Origin: Methanobrevibacter olleyae
GTDB taxonomy: Archaea > Methanobacteriota > Methanobacteria > Methanobacteriales > Methanobacteriaceae
Reading direction: 5' to 3'
Assembly (NCBI RefSeq): GCF_900114585.1
Contig: NZ_FOTL01000011.1
Location: 3,623 to 46,208 of the forward strand
Length of the DNA stretch: 42,586 bases
Below are positions 17,187 to 27,962 of the stretch, piece after piece. The notes below the pieces were generated by a model, which was not told where the DNA came from, did not search any database, and was given only the letters and a program-made list of their open reading frames with translations. Both the position numbers and the translations under genes were made by a program. Within the stretch, counting starts at the first letter, position 1. The number at the start of each line of letters is the position of its first letter.

Positions 17187-17501
17187 CTATAAAATATTTT
17201 TAACAATAATTGAAGCAGCTTCATCTATATTATTTCTAGCCTTATTTTTGATGGTTTCAACATCATTTTCAGCTTTAGAACTTATAGAAGTAGCTTCTTT
17301 CTTTGCATTTTCTTCTGCATCAAAAACAGTAGATTGAGCTTCTTCGTTAGCTTCATTCTTAGCAATTTCAACCATTTCATTTGCTTTTAAAGTAGCATCA
17401 TCAATCATAGCTTTCGCATCGACTGTTGATTGTTCTACTAAGGAATCAGCATCACTTTCAGCTTTTTTTATTTGGATAATAGCTTCTGATATCCCTGCCA
17501 T
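17187..17501 (-). CDS. atpH: A-type ATP synthase peripheral-stalk subunit H
   Basis: First gene of the operon. The 104-residue protein is one continuous helix rich in Ala, Glu, Lys and Asp, with hendecad/heptad spacing, as expected for the partner of subunit E in the peripheral stalk. GGTGAT lies a few bases before the ATG. An earlier out-of-frame ATG overlaps that site and is not the start. Confidence 0.92.
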   Translation of the reverse strand: MAGISEAIIQIKKAESDADSLVEQSTVDAKAMIDDATLKANEMVEIAKNEANEEAQSTVFDAEENAKKEATSISSKAENDVETIKNKARNNIDEAASIIVKNIL

Positions 17502-19075: not shown

Positions 19076-19582
19076 CTATTTGTATATAACCAATTCATCA
19101 ATAGATTTTCTAGGAGTGTCTCTTGGTTCTGCATTTCCATATCCTAAAGGAGTAAATAAGACAGCTTCCCATTCATCATCTAGGTCTAAGAATTCTTTTG
19201 CTTTATCTGGTTTAAATGCTGCAATAAAGCAAGTGTTTAAACCGACATCTTCAGCTGCAAGAATCATATGGGTCATTACGATAGTTGCATCAATATCAGC
19301 AATATTCTTATTGTCATATCTTCTAGTCCATGCTTTTTCTTTAGAAGCAAGAACACAAAGAGCTATTGGTGCTTGTGTAAACCAATCAGGACTATAAATA
19401 GCAGTTAATTCTTCTTTATACTTTCTAGTATCGATTACAACTACTTTAAAAGCTTGGAAATTTGCTCCAGTTGGAGCAAGTTGAGCAGCTTTTAAAACTT
19501 TATCTAATTTTTCCTGCTCCACCTCTTTATCTTCAAAACCCCTCATACTGTATCTTTGTTCAATAAGGTCAAAAAATTCCAT
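19076..19582 (-). CDS. Nitroreductase-family FMN protein
   Basis: FMN-dependent NAD(P)H oxidoreductase of the nitroreductase family (168 residues). Visible family features are the N-terminal RYSMRGF (FMN phosphate contact), the AAQLAPTGANFQ segment (about 32-43), the dimer-forming helices, and PLGYGNAEPRDTPRK near the C-terminus (about 145-160). Methanogens carry several such proteins, with roles from flavin chemistry to oxygen protection; the substrate here is unknown. The ATG at 19582 is preceded at nine bases by AGGAG, and this ribosome site is itself repeated upstream. It follows the organic-acid cassette on the same strand, separated by 241 bases, so membership of the cassette is uncertain. 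Confidence 0.9.
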   Translation of the reverse strand: MEFFDLIEQRYSMRGFEDKEVEQEKLDKVLKAAQLAPTGANFQAFKVVVIDTRKYKEELTAIYSPDWFTQAPIALCVLASKEKAWTRRYDNKNIADIDATIVMTHMILAAEDVGLNTCFIAAFKPDKAKEFLDLDDEWEAVLFTPLGYGNAEPRDTPRKSIDELVIYK

Positions 19583-19823: not shown

Positions 19824-20666
19824 CTATTTTTCATCAATGTCTCTATTTTTAAAGCCTTCATAAACAATATTTTCTAAGTCACAGAAACGTCTGAATTTTT
19901 CTTCTTCTTGCATTTCTTCATAAGCATGAGCAACAAGTCCTGGTAACCTGCCAATCATAAAAATACCTAAACCTAATTGGCTATCAAAGCCTAAATCAGA
20001 AAGCAATCCTGCATTAACTCCATCAACATTTAAACAAACTCCCTTCTTTTCAGATAAAACGCTTTCTATAACAAGTGCTAATTTAGTATGTGGGCCAATA
20101 GCTGATTCTAAAATAGCCAAATCCAACAATCTAACTGCACGAGGATCTTTATCATGGTATCTGTGACCAAAGCCAGGTATTCTCTTTGATTCAGACTCAT
20201 ATTTATTTACAATTTCAATAGCTAATCTAGCAATTCTTTTATTAAGATCCCCTTTATCTGTATTTTCAAGATTTAAAGTTCTTATAGAATTTTGAAATAA
20301 ATTCATAGCTTTTTCAATAGCACCTGCATGGTTTTTACCAAATGACAGTAAACCTCCTGCAACAGCATTATTAATATTTGCCCCTGAAGATGCTATTAAT
20401 CTTGCAGACTGAGTGCTTGGAGGAGTTACACCATGATCACAAAATGAAACTAGTATATGGTTAAAAATCTTAGCTTCCCTTTCAGAGGGCAATCTTTCTT
20501 TAAGTAATAAAAATACCATTTCTGCAAAACTAAGATTTGTAATTAAATCTTCTTGCCTATAGCCTCTAGTAGATAGTTCATCAGGCTTTACATCAGTGAT
20601 ACTAGTTTTAATATTTTGTTCGGGAAATTTAAAACCATTTTTAATAGGTTTCTGATTATCTTTCAT
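19824..20666 (-). CDS. Short citrate synthase / citryl-CoA lyase family enzyme
   Basis: At 280 residues this is much shorter than classical citrate synthase (about 370-430) and has the size of citryl-CoA lyase, the enzyme that cleaves citryl-CoA (or a similar acyl-CoA) to acetyl-CoA and oxaloacetate; the direction and exact substrate are unproven. The active-site residues of the superfamily are all visible: His113 in KNHAGA, His168 in PGFGHR and Asp215 in LNVDG, and a DHG(x)nST-like motif is present at 77-85. AAGGAG precedes the ATG. It is the last of six co-directional genes with a PrpD-like protein, a fumarase-like protein and putative carriers, which suggests it finishes the breakdown (or starts the synthesis) of a tricarboxylate or branched hydroxy acid. 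Confidence 0.85.
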   Translation of the reverse strand: MKDNQKPIKNGFKFPEQNIKTSITDVKPDELSTRGYRQEDLITNLSFAEMVFLLLKERLPSEREAKIFNHILVSFCDHGVTPPSTQSARLIASSGANINNAVAGGLLSFGKNHAGAIEKAMNLFQNSIRTLNLENTDKGDLNKRIARLAIEIVNKYESESKRIPGFGHRYHDKDPRAVRLLDLAILESAIGPHTKLALVIESVLSEKKGVCLNVDGVNAGLLSDLGFDSQLGLGIFMIGRLPGLVAHAYEEMQEEEKFRRFCDLENIVYEGFKNRDIDEK

Positions 20667-20770
20667 AATATCTCCTTAGAATAATCATTAATAATCATCA
20701 ATAGTTTTTTATTTATATAATTATTTTTTATTATAATTGTTTTTAACTCATAGAAAAGTCAAACTCTTAA

Positions 20771-21655
20771 CTAAAATTCAAAACTTGAAACTCTTGGTTC
20801 TACAAAACATGCTGGGCGAGTTGCTACTATTCTAACTCCACTTGCTCTTTGGCTACCGATATTTACAAAGGAGCCTAAAACAGTTGTCCTGCCACCAAGA
20901 CCTAAAGGACCAATGTTTGTTTTATTCAACTCATCAGATATATATTTTTCAATATCCGATTGAATGTTTAAATTGCCATGAGCCATAGCTCTTAAGATAA
21001 GAGCATTTGCTTCAAAGTGAGTTCTGCCAATACCAATAGCCGGAATTGAAGGAGTGCAACCTAAGATGGATAAAGATTCTTTAAGCCAATCCAGCGCTTC
21101 ATTAAATACCCTCATTGAATCTCTTTTATGAAAGATTCTATAAGTTTTAGCCCTTATTTCAGGACCTCCCCCTTCCAATAAAACAGTGACTTTTATTTTA
21201 TCATCATCTTGAGCAATTGATCTTCCATAACTGGATTCATCATTTTCTTCTATTAAAAAAGAAACAGGTTTCACCATGCTGGACTCTTCAAAAAGGCCCT
21301 TTGATTGGTTTATCCTTTCAATGCCATTACCTTTAACTGCCATTGGCCTACCTGGAAGTTTATCTAAACCCTGAGCAATACCTATATTTATTTCATTGAA
21401 AAAGTCTTTAGGAATCTCTCTATTTTTGCCTATTTCCATTAAAACATGTGGAATTCCTGTATCATCACATAAAGGAAGTTTATTTTGACAAGCTACTTTA
21501 AAGTTTTCAATCATTCCCTCTAAAGCCCAAACTGCATTTTCATTATTCAATTCTTTTTCTAATTTTAAAGCATCCAGATAGGCATTTAATCTATCTTCAC
21601 TATATGAGCTACCTGCTTTAACAACTGCATTTTGAACTTTTTCAATTAAATCCAT
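20771..21655 (-). CDS. Class I fumarase/tartrate dehydratase alpha-like protein
   Basis: Fe-S hydro-lyase of the TtdA/FumA N-terminal family (294 residues). The three cysteines expected to bind the 4Fe-4S cluster are visible: Cys63 in PLCDDTG, Cys200 in LGCTPS, and Cys283 in ATRPACF, along with the GPLGLGGRTTVLG loop (about 249-261). Such enzymes add or remove water from fumarate, tartrate, mesaconate or related acids. In the two-subunit form a beta subunit (TtdB) is required, but no TtdB-like gene is found anywhere in this window. The motif QDTG is DDTG here. A weak GTTGAT lies upstream of the ATG. It sits between the U32-like and the citryl-CoA lyase-like genes, on the same strand. Confidence 0.85.
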   Translation of the reverse strand: MDLIEKVQNAVVKAGSSYSEDRLNAYLDALKLEKELNNENAVWALEGMIENFKVACQNKLPLCDDTGIPHVLMEIGKNREIPKDFFNEINIGIAQGLDKLPGRPMAVKGNGIERINQSKGLFEESSMVKPVSFLIEENDESSYGRSIAQDDDKIKVTVLLEGGGPEIRAKTYRIFHKRDSMRVFNEALDWLKESLSILGCTPSIPAIGIGRTHFEANALILRAMAHGNLNIQSDIEKYISDELNKTNIGPLGLGGRTTVLGSFVNIGSQRASGVRIVATRPACFVEPRVSSFEF

Positions 21656-21740
21656 AATATCAACAAATAAATTTTGAATTTTAAAAAACTATCCATATTT
21701 ATAAAAAAAATTCACTACTTTAAATTAAAAGATTTTTAAA

Positions 21741-22619
21741 TTAGAACTTACTCATAATAGCTTCTGGATAATGTCTTTCAATTAAATCTCTAATTAAAGC
21801 TACTTGTTTAGCTCTCTGTCTAGCTTCTTTATCACTTGTATCCCAACTGTGATGTTTGGCAACAGATCCACCAGTTTTTAGGTAAATTGGGCTTGTTAGT
21901 CTAATCATCTCAGGAACTTCATAATGACGGATAAATCCTCCTGTAGATTTAGGGTTTTCTGTATGTACATCAATTGGAATATCTATTGCATCACGTAAGG
22001 ATGCAAGCATTGGAATTTGTAAATCTCTTACAGGATTTAATGAATTTAAACCAATTGATTCAAATAATTTAGCTGAAGCAGGATTAGAACATCCTGCATG
22101 GGCAGATAATTTAAATTTTAAATCCTTTGGAAGTTCTCCTAGATTCCTCATTTTAGAAAGCACAAAGAGTAAGCCTTCATCATACAATAAAATTCCTCTA
22201 ACTCCCAATTCAACTGCTCTTTTAACATCTTCAATTGCATAAACAAGATTGTCATAACCTCTTAATCTGTATCCAATACGTTTTCCTTCCTCTGTTTGGA
22301 CAGTTGCACTTGTATCATATGGAGCTCTTGGACCTACAGCTAAAAATAATTGAATATTTGCTTCACTTGCCAAATCAAGCATTTGACAAATTTCATCATC
22401 TAATAAAAACATTATCCCCTTAGTTTGAGTAGCTCTATGAATAGTTAAATCATAATCATTACAAGCATTTAAAAGAGATTCAAGTGCAGAAGGGCCCTGT
22501 ATTCCAGGAACTTCAAATCTATATTGCCCTCCATCTTCAAATCGCTTTTCTGATTTGTAATCATTATCTATCTCATTTATTCCTAATTTTTCTAATGATT
22601 TTTTAGTTTCATCCATCAT
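21741..22619 (-). CDS. Peptidase U32-like TIM-barrel protein
   Basis: About 292 residues, resembling bacterial proteins annotated as U32-family peptidases: the pattern is GQYRFEVPGIQGP near the N-terminus, then a barrel-like alternation of strands and helices, including LFLAVGPRAPYD, LVYAIEDVKRAVELGVRGIL and LKFKLSAHAGCSNP, and the C-terminal RHYPEAIMSKF. Members of this superfamily range from proteases to RNA-modifying and ubiquinone-biosynthesis proteins, so a protease role should not be assumed; in this context a metabolic enzyme is equally possible. A longer reading frame begins at a GTG at 22628, but the ATG at 22619 (or the next codon at 22616) is better placed after the GTGAT ribosome site. 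Its 5' edge lies on a 54-bp repeat. Confidence 0.7.
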   Translation of the reverse strand: MMDETKKSLEKLGINEIDNDYKSEKRFEDGGQYRFEVPGIQGPSALESLLNACNDYDLTIHRATQTKGIMFLLDDEICQMLDLASEANIQLFLAVGPRAPYDTSATVQTEEGKRIGYRLRGYDNLVYAIEDVKRAVELGVRGILLYDEGLLFVLSKMRNLGELPKDLKFKLSAHAGCSNPASAKLFESIGLNSLNPVRDLQIPMLASLRDAIDIPIDVHTENPKSTGGFIRHYEVPEMIRLTSPIYLKTGGSVAKHHSWDTSDKEARQRAKQVALIRDLIERHYPEAIMSKF

Positions 22620-22623
22620 AAAA

Positions 22624-22731
22624 ATCACTTTTCATTGATAACAATTATATCTTTTAAAAACCATTTTAATTATAAAGATCACTTTTCATTGATAACAATT
22701 ATATCTTTTAAAAACCATTTTAATTATAAAA
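22624..22731 (-). repeat. 54-bp direct repeat upstream of the U32-like gene
   Basis: Two nearly perfect copies, 22624-22677 and 22678-22731, fill most of the gap to the PrpD-like gene. The first copy contains the GTGAT ribosome site of the U32-like gene, so the site exists twice. Confidence 0.92.
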
Positions 22732-22753
22732 TCTATAAAAAGATTGTAGAAAA

Positions 22754-24313
22754 TTATTTATTATCTAATAAATCTAATTGCTTAAAAACTTCATGAATTG
22801 ACTTACTTTCCATATGTTTAATTATTTGTAGTTTATTCATATTAAACTTAGGATTTAAAAGCTTGAACTTTTCTAAAATATCTTCTAATAACAAGGGGTT
22901 TTCCACTTCCCCTAATGGATAATAAGTAGTATACTCTAAATTATTTAATGAATTAAAATCATTGTCTTTAAATTTGATTATTACTTTAGATGGTCTTTTA
23001 TCAGGAGTTAATTGATTAAATTCATCATTATTAATAATATTAATCTTATTTATTGTTTCTTTAATTTTTAAAATATCTTTAGCAAAATCATCCCCATCAA
23101 AAATATCTTTATCAAAATTCACCCCATCAAAAAGACCATTATCAAAATTTACCCTATCAAAAAGACCATTATCAGCTAATTCATCAATTGAATCTAAACT
23201 TAAGTCATTAGAAACTAAAGAAATAGCTACAGCATATGGTAAGGATTGTTTTAAATCTTGAAGATTTTTTGGATTATAATTATCATGTTCACTTGCTATT
23301 TTATAAGTCTCTACATCAATTGATTTTATTAAATCAAGACAATCCGAATAATTTAGCTTAGAATTTGAATTTAAATCATTTAAATCATCTTTTAAAGCTA
23401 AAGCAGAATCAATAGCTGAATGAATATGTCTGCAAAATGGATATTTTTTTAAATAAACCTCATTTATATGGAATTTATTTAAATTGTCTTTTAAAAATTG
23501 AGATATCTTTAAAGAATCAATATCCCCTTTATTATCACTGAAACTATCATAAGATTTAGTAGCCATAGCTTTTAAAAAGCCTTCCTTACCATCAATTAAA
23601 GACTCCCCACCAGTAAAGCCATTTTTAGCTAAAAATGCTGATAAAATTCCATTATAGACAGCAGCTCCAGCATGTAAAGATTTACCCATAGTTCCAGCAT
23701 GATCTGCTTCAAGAAGACCTGATGATTGGGTAGCGGATAAAGCCAAGCAATGTTCAGTTTTTTCCAAATCTAATTTTAAAAGCTTAGATGCAACTGCACC
23801 GGATGTTAAAGCTCCAATAGTTCCTGTACTATGAAATCCTTGATTTCTATGACTTGGATTAACAAGCATACCTAATACAATAGCTACTTCATATCCAAGA
23901 ACAATAGCTTCAAAAAACTCTTCTCCACTGATATCCAAATCTAAATTACTATCACAAACCATAGCTAAAACAGTTGAAAAAACAACTGAACCAGGATGTA
24001 ATTGAGCCAATCTATGACCATCATCTAAATCTAAGCTATGAGATGCAATTCCATTAATAAATCCTTTATTTAATAAATTAAAATCATCATGAAAATCATT
24101 ATCATATAATTCAAATATTGTTTTAATAGCTATTTTAGAGTTTTCAGTTTCTAATCCTCTAAAATAAACTGCCAAATAATCTAAAAAGCATAATTTAGCC
24201 TTTTCAATAGATTCCTTAGGAATATCCTCATATCTTAAGTCAATCAAATATTTAGACAATTCATCAATAATCATAATCATATCTTTATAATTACTATATA
24301 ATAAATATGGCAT
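22754..24313 (-). CDS. MmgE/PrpD family protein
   Basis: Member of the MmgE/PrpD family, which includes 2-methylcitrate dehydratase, cis-aconitate decarboxylase and iminodisuccinate epimerase. Family patterns include SHSLDLDDGHRLAQLHPGSVVF (about 70-90, partial), GYEVAIVLGMLVNPSHRNQGFHSTGTIGAL and LLEADHAGTMGKSLHAGAA (His and Lys contacts around 200-220), and KKYPFCRHIHSAIDSALAL (about 289-307). Residues about 382-415 hold a 10-residue unit (DNGLFDGVNF-type) three times in tandem, an insertion in the second domain. The ATG at 24313 has no clear ribosome site; Met12 or Met14 (24280 or 24274) is an equally plausible start because homologues begin near IIDELSKYLIDL. It is fourth from the end of the cassette; dehydration, decarboxylation or epimerisation of an organic acid is inferred. 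Confidence 0.85.
   Translation of the reverse strand: MPYLLYSNYKDMIMIIDELSKYLIDLRYEDIPKESIEKAKLCFLDYLAVYFRGLETENSKIAIKTIFELYDNDFHDDFNLLNKGFINGIASHSLDLDDGHRLAQLHPGSVVFSTVLAMVCDSNLDLDISGEEFFEAIVLGYEVAIVLGMLVNPSHRNQGFHSTGTIGALTSGAVASKLLKLDLEKTEHCLALSATQSSGLLEADHAGTMGKSLHAGAAVYNGILSAFLAKNGFTGGESLIDGKEGFLKAMATKSYDSFSDNKGDIDSLKISQFLKDNLNKFHINEVYLKKYPFCRHIHSAIDSALALKDDLNDLNSNSKLNYSDCLDLIKSIDVETYKIASEHDNYNPKNLQDLKQSLPYAVAISLVSNDLSLDSIDELADNGLFDRVNFDNGLFDGVNFDKDIFDGDDFAKDILKIKETINKINIINNDEFNQLTPDKRPSKVIIKFKDNDFNSLNNLEYTTYYPLGEVENPLLLEDILEKFKLLNPKFNMNKLQIIKHMESKSIHEVFKQLDLLDNK
23094..23185 (-). repeat. In-frame 30-bp repeat inside the PrpD-like gene
   Basis: The segments DNGLFDRVNF, DNGLFDGVNF and DKDIFDGDDF follow each other without gap and are encoded by diverged 30-bp direct repeats. 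The length keeps the frame. Confidence 0.85.
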
Positions 24314-24446
24314 AGTTTTAATAATTATGGCATAGTTTTAATAATTTTAAAAAAATAACAAAAACAATGCTAATAAAAAAAGAGAAAATATTAAATCAAA
24401 AATAACAAAAGCAATGCTAATAAAAAAGAGAAAAGATTAAATTAAA
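24306..24446 (-). repeat. Two small arrays before the PrpD-like gene
   Basis: A 20-bp unit (TATGGCATAGTTTTAATAAT) occurs twice at 24306-24345 and contains the annotated ATG (CAT on the + strand). Next to it a 47-bp unit occurs twice at about 24353-24446, each copy containing AATGCTAATAAAAAA. They fill most of the 169-base gap to the membrane-protein gene. Confidence 0.85.
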
Positions 24447-24482
24447 GATTATAAAAATTAAAAAAAGAAAAAATAACTGAAA

Positions 24483-24965
24483 TCATATAGAGCCAGTCAT
24501 CATAAGAACCATTTGTGCAATAAATGCAGAACCTAAATAAGTTCCTGCAATTACAAATATTGTAATAACAATACCTCTCCAGCCTATCTTTTTAAATTTA
24601 TTCCAATCTTTACCAATTGCTATACCTACATAAGCAAGGAAAACAGTACAGATTGAAGACAATTCAATTTGAGACACATAATAAACAACTGTACTTGAAG
24701 CTGGAGAGAATGGTAAGGCCAAAGCTAAACCAATTAAACTTATATAAACAATTGAAGAAATATTAAAAGGCAATTCTCTCTCTAAAACCATGCCTACAAT
24801 AGTTATCACAGATAAAATAATCATACCAATAAAGGCTTCATTCATAGGATGTTTATAACCTACATAGTTACCTACACAAACAATAAATGAAAATATAAGT
24901 AAAAATACAGACCATCTAAATAATTTATTCTTACTTACATGTTGAGATTCTTCTATTAATTCCAT
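24483..24965 (-). CDS. Membrane protein of the organic-acid cassette (DUF3100 partner)
   Basis: A 160-residue protein with about four or five hydrophobic segments (about 18-38, 46-63, 68-90, 100-122 and 132-155). It begins inside the end of the DUF3100-like gene (10-base overlap), with GGAGGTT seven bases before its ATG, so the two are translated together and probably form one membrane complex. Its family is not recognised. A paired small and large membrane protein suggests a two-component carrier; by context the cargo would be an organic acid handled by the enzymes downstream. That function is inferred. Confidence 0.75.
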   Translation of the reverse strand: MELIEESQHVSKNKLFRWSVFLLIFSFIVCVGNYVGYKHPMNEAFIGMIILSVITIVGMVLERELPFNISSIVYISLIGLALALPFSPASSTVVYYVSQIELSSICTVFLAYVGIAIGKDWNKFKKIGWRGIVITIFVIAGTYLGSAFIAQMVLMMTGSI

Positions 24966-25849
24966 TTTTGAACCTCCTCTTTAGTTTCATCATCTTTTTC
25001 ATATTCCCTACCAATTATAGGTTCTAAGTGTTTGTATAAGAATTCAGTGAGAGGAATGGAAAGTAATATACATTCATAAATTCCAAAACAGAATGAAATT
25101 AAATTACTGCAACCTGCAAATGCTTCAATATTAGTAGCTAAAGCAGGATACATATGTACTAATGGAGATACTGCAGCAGCATTCATACTTGCACTTCCAA
25201 TACCACAAGCCATAGCCATAGCATATGGGTGTAATGGCAAAACAGAAGCAATGATACTTACTAAGAAACTAATAAAGATAGTTCCTATCATAGTACCAAT
25301 TACAAATACAGTTAAAACACCACGTGCTTCATCTGAATCAAAACCATACTTATCAATAATAATTCCCAGGTTAGGTTCACGGCAAATAGAACTTGTCATA
25401 CCAATAGTTTCACGTTTAAATCCAAGTAATAATGCAACAGGTAATGCTAAAAAGATTGTACCTAAATTACCTAATTCCTGAAGTAATAATGCAGGACCTA
25501 CCTGTAAAATTATATGAATAGATTGGCCGCTTGAAATAGCTAATTTTGCAATTAGCGGACCAATAAACACTAACATAGCACCTTGAGCCACTTTAGATTG
25601 CTTTTTACCTACAATCTTAAATGGTTTTAACAAGTAAAGAGCTAATCCTATAATCATTGCATAAAGTAAAGGCATTGTAACAATACTAATTGATGAACCA
25701 ATATTGAATGTTCTAATTCCAATTGTTTCTGCAATAATTACTAAAAAGAATACAACAATATGTAAATTATATTCCTTCCACGGAGGTCTTTTTTTTATCG
25801 CTTTGTCGGTTTTATCCCTAAAAGTATAATCGTAATTATCTTCACTAAT
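24956..25849 (-). CDS. DUF3100-like membrane protein, probable ATT start
   Basis: Polytopic membrane protein of the DUF3100 type, with about seven to eight hydrophobic segments and a conserved core GLALYLLKPF, GMTSSICREPNLGIIIDKYG and ACGIGSASMNAAAVSP. The only in-frame ATG is at 25675, but the frame stays open upstream and encodes a hydrophilic start (SEDNYDYTFRDKTDKAIKKR), then a good transmembrane helix (LHIVVFFLVIIAETIGI), which belongs to the family's normal N-terminus. The sole well-placed ribosome site, AAAGGAG, lies nine bases before an ATT codon at 25849-25847; no ATG, GTG or TTG occurs between. I therefore annotate 297 residues from ATT. It is the first gene of the cassette. Carrier function is inferred from context. 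Confidence 0.75.
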   Translation of the reverse strand: MSEDNYDYTFRDKTDKAIKKRPPWKEYNLHIVVFFLVIIAETIGIRTFNIGSSISIVTMPLLYAMIIGLALYLLKPFKIVGKKQSKVAQGAMLVFIGPLIAKLAISSGQSIHIILQVGPALLLQELGNLGTIFLALPVALLLGFKRETIGMTSSICREPNLGIIIDKYGFDSDEARGVLTVFVIGTMIGTIFISFLVSIIASVLPLHPYAMAMACGIGSASMNAAAVSPLVHMYPALATNIEAFAGCSNLISFCFGIYECILLSIPLTEFLYKHLEPIIGREYEKDDETKEEVQKWN

Positions 25850-25949: not shown

Positions 25950-26239
25950 TGCATAAATTAGAATTAATTAAAAAACTATCTTTTACTTTTAGTTTTAAAT
26001 TTCTTACTTATAAATTAATCTATTTAATTCTAAAAAATTATAAATAATGATAATTTATTACCAATAAAGTAAAAAATATTAAAAAATGATTAACTTTATA
26101 AAAAATTTATGAAAATTATAACAAAGTGATAAAAATTTTTAATAAATAATAAAAAGCGAATAAAAAATCAGATTAAAAAATCGCCTTAATAATCAAAAAT
26201 AGCTTTAATAATATTAATAATTAAAGAAATTAATAAATC
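25950..26239. other. AT-rich spacer
   Basis: No gene, hairpin with a GC stem or RNA-like island is seen between the cassette promoter and the repeat array downstream of tiaS. Confidence 0.6.
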
Positions 26240-26461
26240 AATCTAAATCCATAGGAATAAGAAATTAATAATTAAAGAAATTAATAAATCAATCTAAATC
26301 CATAGGAATAAGAAATTAACAATTAAAGAAATTAATAAATCAATCTAAATCCATAGTAATAAGAAATTAATAATTAAAGAAATTAATAAATCAATCTAAA
26401 TCCATAGTAATAAGAAATTAATAATTAATCTAAATCCATAGTAATAAGAAATTAATAATTA
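26240..26461 (-). repeat. 51/34-bp tandem array copying the end of tiaS
   Basis: AATCTAAATCCAT recurs at 26240, 26291, 26342, 26393 and 26427, and the tiaS gene end AATCTAAGTTCAT at 26461 is a sixth, diverged copy. Steps are 51, 51, 51, 34 and 34 bases; the longer unit is the shorter one plus 17 bases. On the minus strand the copies read ATG-GAT-TTA-GAT-TAA, mirroring the tiaS ending ATG-AAC-TTA-GAT-TAA. Confidence 0.92.
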
Positions 26462-27712
26462 ATCTAAGTTCATACGAATTAGAGGTTTAGATAAATGACG
26501 TCTAGCTGAAACTGGAGTTTCATAAAATTTGCCATTGATTAAACTACGCTCTACTATCTCAGGAACCTTATCATCAGAGCCTATTTTCCTACCACAGTTT
26601 TTACATTTAAAACCCTTTCCTTTACCTGCTGAGGTCATCCTCTTACCACATTCACAAATAGGATTCTTGTAAAGAAATTGATTAAGCTTTAAAACTTGGA
26701 ACTTTTCAATATTAAAGGTATTTTGTTCACCTATTCCACCATAAACCTCTATTTCATCTCCAGCTTTTAATTCAGCTACAATTTTTCTAAAATTCTTAGT
26801 TGGTTCATATGCTCCACACTCAATTTCACCACTTTCATCATACAAAGTGAAAAACATGTGCCCCCCTTCAATTATATGAGGCTTGTCTTTAACAATCCCC
26901 CTTACTTTATAGCAGGAATACTGTTTAAGCTCACTTATCCTATTTGCATTTTGAATATGCATATCTGTATGTTGATTTGTTTTAAAAATACATGAATCGG
27001 CAATTCTTTCATTCGGTATAACGATATCCCTTGCAATATCCAAAACTTCAGGATTATTAGATCTTATACCATATAGAATAGGGCATGGAGTTTTAGGTTC
27101 AATAGCTAAATATTCACCATCAATATTTTCAAAAGTTTCAGGAAAAGTTTCTTTATCCATCCTAACAACAGAATCATAATCAATTTCACGTAAAGTTCCA
27201 TACCTAGAAGAATCCCTATATGCTAAAAGTTCATAGGTATAATCTTCTAAAGGACAGGAAATAGCTGCAATAGAGCCAATGATTCCTCTGCCTTTTTTAA
27301 ATTTATGAATTTCAGCACCGATTTGACTGGCAAATTCTTCTGCTTCTTCTATAGTTATTATTGAGTAAATGGCTTTAAATGCATATCTAATCATTTCTTC
27401 AGTGATTTCACCTTTATAGAAGACAACTCCAGGATTAGTGTTATCACAATCCATGATTGAAAGCTCGCTAACAAACTTAAGCACTATTTCTTTTGCCAGA
27501 TCTATCTTTTGATTTAAATCTAATTTAAAAGAGATCCCTCCGTTTCCCCTGGTTTTAAATTTGGCAAAGGGATTTAGGCGAATTAAACGTGGAAAGCCAA
27601 TAATTTCAATATCGTTCTTTTTAAACTCCTTTAAAATAGCAGATGCTAAAAATGTAGTGCACATTCCATCTGGAGAGTCTGTATCATCAATTCCTATATA
27701 AAAATAATCCAT
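26459..27712 (-). CDS. tiaS: tRNA(Ile2) 2-agmatinylcytidine synthetase
   Basis: TiaS joins agmatine to C34 of tRNA-Ile2, using ATP, so that the archaeal CAU anticodon reads AUA. The N-terminus DYFYIGIDDTDSPDGMCT is the family's ATP/metal-binding start. A kinase-like domain follows (about 1-250), then an OB-fold domain (about 265-345), and a C-terminal zinc ribbon with CECGKR and CKNCG (about 350-372). The open frame extends to a TTG at 27721, but the ATG at 27712 is the normal start, with GTGATT upstream; this gives 417 residues, typical of the family. The gene stands alone. Confidence 0.95.
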   Translation of the reverse strand: MDYFYIGIDDTDSPDGMCTTFLASAILKEFKKNDIEIIGFPRLIRLNPFAKFKTRGNGGISFKLDLNQKIDLAKEIVLKFVSELSIMDCDNTNPGVVFYKGEITEEMIRYAFKAIYSIITIEEAEEFASQIGAEIHKFKKGRGIIGSIAAISCPLEDYTYELLAYRDSSRYGTLREIDYDSVVRMDKETFPETFENIDGEYLAIEPKTPCPILYGIRSNNPEVLDIARDIVIPNERIADSCIFKTNQHTDMHIQNANRISELKQYSCYKVRGIVKDKPHIIEGGHMFFTLYDESGEIECGAYEPTKNFRKIVAELKAGDEIEVYGGIGEQNTFNIEKFQVLKLNQFLYKNPICECGKRMTSAGKGKGFKCKNCGRKIGSDDKVPEIVERSLINGKFYETPVSARRHLSKPLIRMNLD

Positions 27713-27962
27713 ATTAATCAATCACTGAATTTTATAAAAATAAATTTAAAATAGGCTATTTTTATTGATTATGAAAATTAAAATAGTCAATTTTATATTA
27801 ACCTTAAAAGATAATAATATTATTAAAATTTATTTAAACTAATTAATAAAAATTATCTTATAATATAATAAAGCCATCTGAAAAATAAATTAATTCATTA
27901 AGTAAAAAAATTTATTTCATTAGAAAAGATTTATTTTCATTAAATAAAAAAGGGGAGATCCT

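Follow-up and report, generated by a model that had tools for sequence, protein, structure and literature searches.

Methanobrevibacter olleyae encodes a run of proteins from families that act on polycarboxylic acids, which raises the question of whether this methanogen breaks such acids down or makes one. The genes lie in a stretch of 42,586 nt (the window, by which we mean the whole of the DNA analysed) on contig NZ_FOTL01000011.1 of assembly GCF_900114585.1, positions 3,623 to 46,208. A previous reading from the sequence alone (the sequence-only reading) had described a cassette of six open reading frames (ORFs) here, and we found all six on the minus strand within 19824-25849. From upstream to downstream, with lengths in amino acids (aa), they are:

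24956..25849, minus strand: DUF3100 membrane protein, a putative transporter subunit outside the conserved core, with an ATT start
24483..24965, minus strand: small LysO-like membrane protein, 160 aa, the partner of DUF3100, outside the conserved core
22754..24313, minus strand: PrpD, an MmgE/PrpD-family protein, 519 aa, with the Pfam N and C domains
21741..22628, minus strand: U32-like protein, a predicted TIM barrel, 295 aa, without iron-sulfur (Fe-S) cysteines and with an aldolase-like fold
20771..21655, minus strand: HYD, a fumarase/tartrate-dehydratase alpha-type Fe-S hydro-lyase, 294 aa, with three invariant cysteines
19824..20666, minus strand: CCL, a short citrate-synthase-type protein assigned to the citryl-coenzyme A (CoA) lyase subfamily NF004866, 280 aa, retaining His, His and Asp

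We find that the six genes comprise two modules, a four-gene core (prpD, U32-like, HYD and CCL) and a lineage-specific transporter pair. Since the core is conserved and its probable partner HB, a divergent fumarase-type beta subunit encoded elsewhere, stands beside the methanofuran gene mfnA, the core may well build the acidic tail of methanofuran rather than digest imported acids. We give a probability of about 0.5 to this reading, in which the four core proteins and HB form one pathway making the C10 tetracarboxylic side chain of that cofactor.

A conserved four-gene core in the class Methanobacteria

The core genes stood in the same order and on the same strand in 27 of the 32 regions that we fetched across the order of M. 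olleyae. Of the remaining five, two are truncated at contig ends, one lies on a contig that breaks off just past the U32-like gene, and two genera (g5 and g13; f- and g-numbers are our handles for lineages) have core genes that are scattered over contigs yet kept. A Methanothermus-like genome from outside the order carries the same four genes in the same order. Since the joints overlap by 4 bp in f2 genomes and span 1-19 bp at two joints in f3 and 4-5 bp at two joints in g9, the core reads as an operon.

The presence of these genes follows a single pattern. Of 151 genomes of the order, 128 carry the U32-like gene; among the 90 of good quality the count is 77, and the 13 that lack it are all members of genus g12. 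PrpD is likewise present in 77 of 90 (all 77 outside g12, 0/13 within it), and CCL in 76 of 90, a single draft genome departing from the pattern. Nearly every complete genome gave an HYD match of about 1e-90 or better, while g12 returned ordinary fumarase only, at 1e-12 or weaker. None of the 14 genomes in a control set for the CCL subfamily search reached the NF004866 cut-off, and Methanocaldococcus jannaschii and Methanosarcina acetivorans had neither an MmgE/PrpD match nor an NF004866 match over cut-off.

The core is an old cluster shared across the class Methanobacteria, and its thermophilic members, Methanothermus and Methanothermobacter-like genomes, have it as well. Since it is kept in thermophilic lineages without an adjoining transporter, it is most likely biosynthetic, and we hold with considerable confidence that it is a biosynthetic polycarboxylate pathway of this class. 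The sequence-only reading had rightly grouped the enzymes, whose co-occurrence is conserved for the four core genes, and had rightly named them as kinds that act on polycarboxylic acids, as their family membership bears out. Its description of the set as unlike normal methanogen metabolism is not supported, since the U32-like and PrpD genes occur in all 77 good-quality genomes outside g12 (Methanosphaera, see below), thermophiles included. It had proposed degradation "or the reverse"; degradation finds no support here, and the synthetic direction fits best.

A divergent hydro-lyase and a beta subunit beside mfnA

HYD matches PF05681 at about 155 bits, and the three cysteines noted earlier were confirmed by alignment as C63, C200 and C283, invariant between the HYD family and three canonical fumarase alpha subunits. 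It also retains the DTG motif. On the other hand, HYD scores below the cut-offs of the fumarase/tartrate dehydratase models (93/276, 82/101 and 48/365 bits), and its substrate loops are altered relative to fumarase, with GGGPEIRA for GFGSENNN and GIGRTHFEA for GIGGSSDMA. Fumarase-type Fe-S hydro-lyases require alpha and beta parts, and HYD is an alpha subunit only, with no beta gene adjoining. The genome holds two fumarase-type alpha genes, a canonical one (334 bits) and HYD, and two beta genes, a canonical one (144 bits) and a divergent one (73 bits), which we call HB:

G000:C1:35113-35610 (L160, L161), outside the window on another contig, near mfnA: HB, a divergent fumarase-type beta subunit (PF05683)

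HB is present in essentially every core-bearing genome (E values from 1e-108 to about 1e-39), with the same presence/absence profile as HYD; in g12 we found the canonical beta only, at about 32% identity. HB keeps the RD, PT[TS]S and IGKG motifs, its counterpart of the canonical SMRM stretch reads SNKE or SNKA, and the changed substrate-contact motifs of both HYD and HB are conserved within their families. Since HB falls below all NCBIfam cut-offs, it is likely annotated merely as a generic fumarase-type protein. We consider HB the probable beta partner of HYD, and we infer that the two form one enzyme for a substrate other than fumarate. Such an enzyme would share with the two-subunit class I fumarase and L-tartrate dehydratase (PF05681 plus PF05683) the three cluster cysteines of alpha, the Thr and Lys motifs of beta and the presence of both subunits in the genome, but it would differ in that its subunits are encoded far apart, score far below the NCBIfam cut-offs and coexist with a canonical pair.

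The upstream neighbour of HB is MfnA, a tyrosine decarboxylase (TIGR03812, 557 bits against a cut-off of 299) with which the tyramine branch of methanofuran synthesis begins. HB lies directly downstream of mfnA in f3, f2, Methanothermus-like, g14, g15 and g16 genomes, with gaps of -4 to 196 bp. The spacing in two f2 genomes is an overlap of 4 bp or a gap of 2 bp. Two f3 genomes have gaps of 18 and 110 bp, g14 has one of 55 bp, and the Methanobacterium-like g15 and g16 have 170 and 196 bp; in the Methanothermus-like genome the aligned ends are about 10 bp apart. The order is kept in the window's genus with roughly 0.5-1.3 kb between the two genes. The presence of this linkage in the deepest branches suggests that it is ancestral.

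The remaining core enzymes

With 430 bits against NF004866 (cut-off 245), CCL is clearly predicted to belong to the citryl-CoA lyase subfamily. Its best solved match is citryl-CoA lyase 6hxp (E value 4e-57), and the catalytic His, His and Asp reported earlier align with those of that structure. CCL thus resembles citryl-CoA lyase (PDB 6hxp; NCBIfam PRK06224 group) in these residues and in its short citrate-synthase fold, but it lacks a citrate cycle context, and the distribution of NF004866 over cut-off takes in Methanobacteria and none of the controls. A second CCL paralogue is found in thermophilic and Methanobacterium-like genomes (L162, L163, L164, L165), by phosphate-transport genes and near a canonical fumarase alpha; gut lineages retain the core copy only.

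PrpD has both Pfam domains of the MmgE/PrpD family (N domain 193 bits, C domain 74 bits, cut-off 32), which includes 2-methylcitrate dehydratase, cis-aconitate decarboxylase and iminodisuccinate epimerase; the last two are its best solved relatives.

For the protein described earlier as a U32-like barrel, the barrel stands as a prediction, with an AlphaFold2 model that is a confident TIM barrel (predicted local distance difference test, pLDDT, 85.5). The U32 family assignment does not stand: the match reaches 20.1 bits against a cut-off of 22.4, and the family alignment contains no conserved or cluster cysteines, on which ground we rejected an Fe-S U32 hydroxylase of the UbiU/TrhP type. No solved relative emerged from sequence searches. 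The best fold matches of the model are class II aldolases, with the U32 protein Mk0906 and 2-methylisocitrate lyase also scoring high (template modelling score, TM-score, about 0.5). Along with its weak U32 match, the protein has a predicted fold like that of class II aldolases, but it differs from Peptidase U32 in lacking the cluster cysteines and in belonging to a large bacterial family that sits amid sugar-acid genes.

This family is widespread in bacteria (more than 580 genome-collection matches), where its neighbours include IlvD/EDD dehydratase, FAA hydrolase, LarA-type (lactate racemase), altronate-dehydratase-type and aldehyde-dehydrogenase genes. In 80 bacterial loci, covered over up to 10 kb, the other core genes had no homologue, so these neighbourhoods did not reveal the substrate. 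Since they imply sugar-acid and 2-oxo-acid chemistry, they weakly support a role for the U32-like protein in C-C bond chemistry on 2-oxo acids. A distant homologue on a plasmid of Enterobacter chuandaensis (L034, 7914-8852) lies in an apparent small-molecule biosynthesis cluster with a phosphotransferase, an aminotransferase, an iron-containing redox enzyme, an M14 peptidase and a major facilitator superfamily (MFS) protein.

Methanofuran side chains and the absence of the core from Methanosphaera

Methanofuran is the carbon carrier with which methanogenesis from CO2 begins, and gut methanogens of this order have a form with a tetracarboxylic tail. In Methanothermobacter the cofactor is said, from work by Leigh in 1984 and White in 1987 and 1988, to bear hexane-1,3,4,6-tetracarboxylate, and in Methanobrevibacter smithii (M. 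smithii) the 2-hydroxy form of this acid (methanofuran-c); the methanofurans of Methanosarcina and Methanocaldococcus reportedly end in glutamates. MfnA-F build a common core, on which five chemically distinct side chains occur (PMC11365854), and a 2011 inventory that predates MfnB-F put the number of unknown methanofuran genes in Methanothermobacter at an estimated seven (PMC3087415). Our literature search returned no genes for the tetracarboxylate tail, with polymer and materials papers only under the chemical name, and no paper tying the core enzyme families to methanofuran. The genes considered here resemble the MfnA-MfnF set in that HB follows mfnA in deep lineages and in their occurrence in the same organisms, but MfnA-F build the common core, whereas side chains vary among methanofurans.

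One genus, g12, is without the four core genes. MoeA is present in eight other genomes and in 0/13 of g12. We identify g12 as Methanosphaera because MoeA is missing in 13/13 and molybdopterin loss is the published mark of that genus, which without molybdopterin synthesis cannot form an active formylmethanofuran dehydrogenase and is therefore limited to growth on methanol plus H2 (PMC6120340). The loss of the core and HB coincides with the loss of formylmethanofuran dehydrogenase function. Since g12 retains mfnA, and mfnB in 13/13, the methanofuran core pathway itself appears to persist there.

A possible route to the tetracarboxylic tail

The product of the pathway would be hexane-1,3,4,6-tetracarboxylate, or its 2-hydroxy form in methanofuran-c. 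CCL, the U32-like barrel or both would join an acyl-CoA or enol through a new C-C bond to a 2-oxo acid acceptor, probably 2-oxoglutarate. PrpD would dehydrate the resulting tertiary alcohol, as 2-methylcitrate dehydratase does, and HYD/HB would add water to, or remove it from, a substituted fumarate-type intermediate. A reductase would then saturate the double bond, and a ligase would join the acid to the gamma-glutamyl core from MfnA-F.

Two schemes would fit this predicted enzyme set. In the first, CCL would join 2-oxoglutarate and glutaryl-CoA, as in methylcitrate synthesis, to give 3-hydroxyhexane-1,3,4,6-tetracarboxylate, from which PrpD would take off water before a reductase finishes the acid. 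In the second, 2-oxoglutarate and acetyl-CoA would give a homocitrate-type acid, which PrpD and HYD/HB would convert to homoaconitate; the U32-like barrel would extend this by a pyruvate or phosphoenolpyruvate (PEP) unit, and reduction of the 2-oxo acid so formed would yield the 2-hydroxy form found in methanofuran-c.

Counterevidence and other possible products

Several observations weigh against assigning the core to methanofuran. HB has moved away from mfnA in g6 and g9, the latter containing M. smithii, and in one g9 genome its divergently oriented neighbours are ORFs that by eye resemble 2-oxoglutarate oxidoreductase and succinyl-CoA ligase subunits. Besides its role in methanofuran synthesis, MfnA acts as an aspartate decarboxylase giving beta-alanine for CoA synthesis, so its neighbourhood is not specific to methanofuran. 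In the loci read, no known mfn gene stands beside the four core genes themselves, and we found no reductase or ligase for the last steps. The absence from Methanosphaera is one loss event in a genus that has lost many other genes too, which makes it weak evidence alone, and other methanogen orders were represented by two control genomes.

These points leave room for a pathway in which the core and HB make another polycarboxylate of the Methanobacteria unrelated to methanofuran, such as an osmolyte, an amino-acid precursor or a homocitrate/homoaconitate-type intermediate. We regard this as possible, if on the doubtful side. The conservation, gene order and shared presence and absence fit any essential polycarboxylate pathway, and the 2-oxoglutarate-oxidoreductase-like neighbours of HB in the g9 genome and the second role of MfnA in CoA synthesis are in keeping with it. 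However, such a product would not account for the position of HB after mfnA in the deepest lineages, with genes overlapping or nearly so, or for the coincidence of the loss with that of formylmethanofuran dehydrogenase function. Moreover, we know of no other order-specific tetra- or tricarboxylate that lacks assigned genes.

A separate putative transporter pair

DUF3100 has a Pfam match of 288 bits, and the LysO match of the small membrane protein is barely over cut-off. The two ORFs overlap by 10 bp, an overlap already recognized by the sequence-only reading, and the small ORF follows DUF3100 both in the window and in four of five outside records examined. The pair is near the core in 12 of the 32 regions, exclusively in the gut genera g1, g6 and g9, and no transporter adjoins the core in thermophilic genomes. 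In five bacterial or haloarchaeal records it stands beside M20 peptidases, aminoacylases or an amidohydrolase, with the core absent from the neighbourhood. Since the pair is not conserved with the core and elsewhere lies near unrelated hydrolases, it is a putative transporter separate from the core, and the earlier proposal of a carrier, dehydratase, hydratase and lyase fails as one unit.

These findings bear on the idea that all six genes import and degrade (or produce) citrate, aconitate, itaconate or mesaconate, the carrier being DUF3100 plus the small protein. The six genes are adjacent on one strand, their enzyme families act on such acids, and the pair lies beside the core in g1, g6 and g9. 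Nevertheless, the thermophilic genomes keep the core with no adjoining carrier, the pair elsewhere keeps company with peptidases or amidohydrolases, and HB follows mfnA and no catabolic gene. We therefore consider such a cassette very unlikely.

DUF3100 has no in-frame ATG, GTG or TTG start and begins at ATT (25849-25847) after AAAGGAG. An ATT start after a good Shine-Dalgarno-like sequence recurs in six DUF3100 genes of the window's genus and g9 (window, L037, L038, L046, L061, L064), and this conserved non-AUG start could reflect translational control. The pair is tandemly repeated beside the core in L038 (G036) and L062 (G042), in three and two copies, respectively. The AlphaFold2 model of DUF3100 is poor (pLDDT 57.7), and our literature search found no paper on DUF3100.

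Two improbable readings: propionate metabolism or a second fumarase

A 2-methylcitrate-type propionate cycle, with CCL as methylcitrate synthase, PrpD as dehydratase, HYD as hydratase and the U32-like protein as an unrelated methylisocitrate lyase, is more improbable still. The PrpD family and the place of 2-methylisocitrate lyase among the better fold matches of the U32-like model speak for it, but class II aldolases score better at TM-scores of only about 0.5, CCL is far below the methylcitrate synthase models, and these autotrophs have no obvious need for such a cycle. PrpD itself reaches 41 bits against the 575-bit cut-off of the methylcitrate dehydratase model, with no methylcitrate cycle genes nearby, and the genome has no enzyme of the PEP-mutase/isocitrate-lyase family (PrpB-type). 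Just as improbable is that HYD with either beta is a plain second fumarase or mesaconase among independent housekeeping genes: the cluster cysteines and DTG of HYD and the RD, PT[TS]S and IGKG of HB would suit such an enzyme, but the canonical alpha and beta genes are in the same genome, both subunits have altered substrate-contact motifs that their new families conserve, and the four core genes are kept together across the class.

Flanking genes and gene starts

At most loci, including those of thermophiles, Methanobacterium-like genomes and the window, the core sits between tiaS and the ATP-synthase operon. The flanking genes of the window are:

26459..27721, minus strand: tiaS (tRNA-Ile2 agmatidine synthase), the upstream cluster border in most lineages, outside the pathway
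19076..19582, minus strand: nitroreductase-family flavoprotein, adjoining CCL in gut lineages only
17187..17501, minus strand: first gene of the A-type ATP synthase operon (ahaH-like), the downstream cluster border, outside the pathway

The flavoprotein is a possible candidate for an accessory reductase of the core. Between tiaS and DUF3100, at 26195-26455, are several near-identical AT-rich repeats of about 60 bp each. Two core genes may start further in than listed: the listed start of the U32-like gene is GTG, with ATG codons at 22619 and 22616 as likelier starts, and PrpD homologues align only from about residue 14, so that its true start may be near 24274.

Implications

Even if the proposed product is wrong, nearly all Methanobacteria carry a conserved, unassigned and probably biosynthetic operon. 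In its fullest form, our proposal is that the five unassigned genes are the missing tetracarboxylic-tail pathway of Methanobacteria, with a branched polycarboxylate as the substrate of a new two-subunit Fe-S hydro-lyase and with a first function for the U32-like barrel family, and that Methanosphaera dropped the pathway on losing CO2 reduction; we advance this tentatively, at a little short of even odds. If it is true, five named genes would make a decades-old biosynthetic question directly testable, the enzymes would, within the range tested, be restricted to methanogens common in ruminants, and the pathway would show what the unannotated U32-like family can do.

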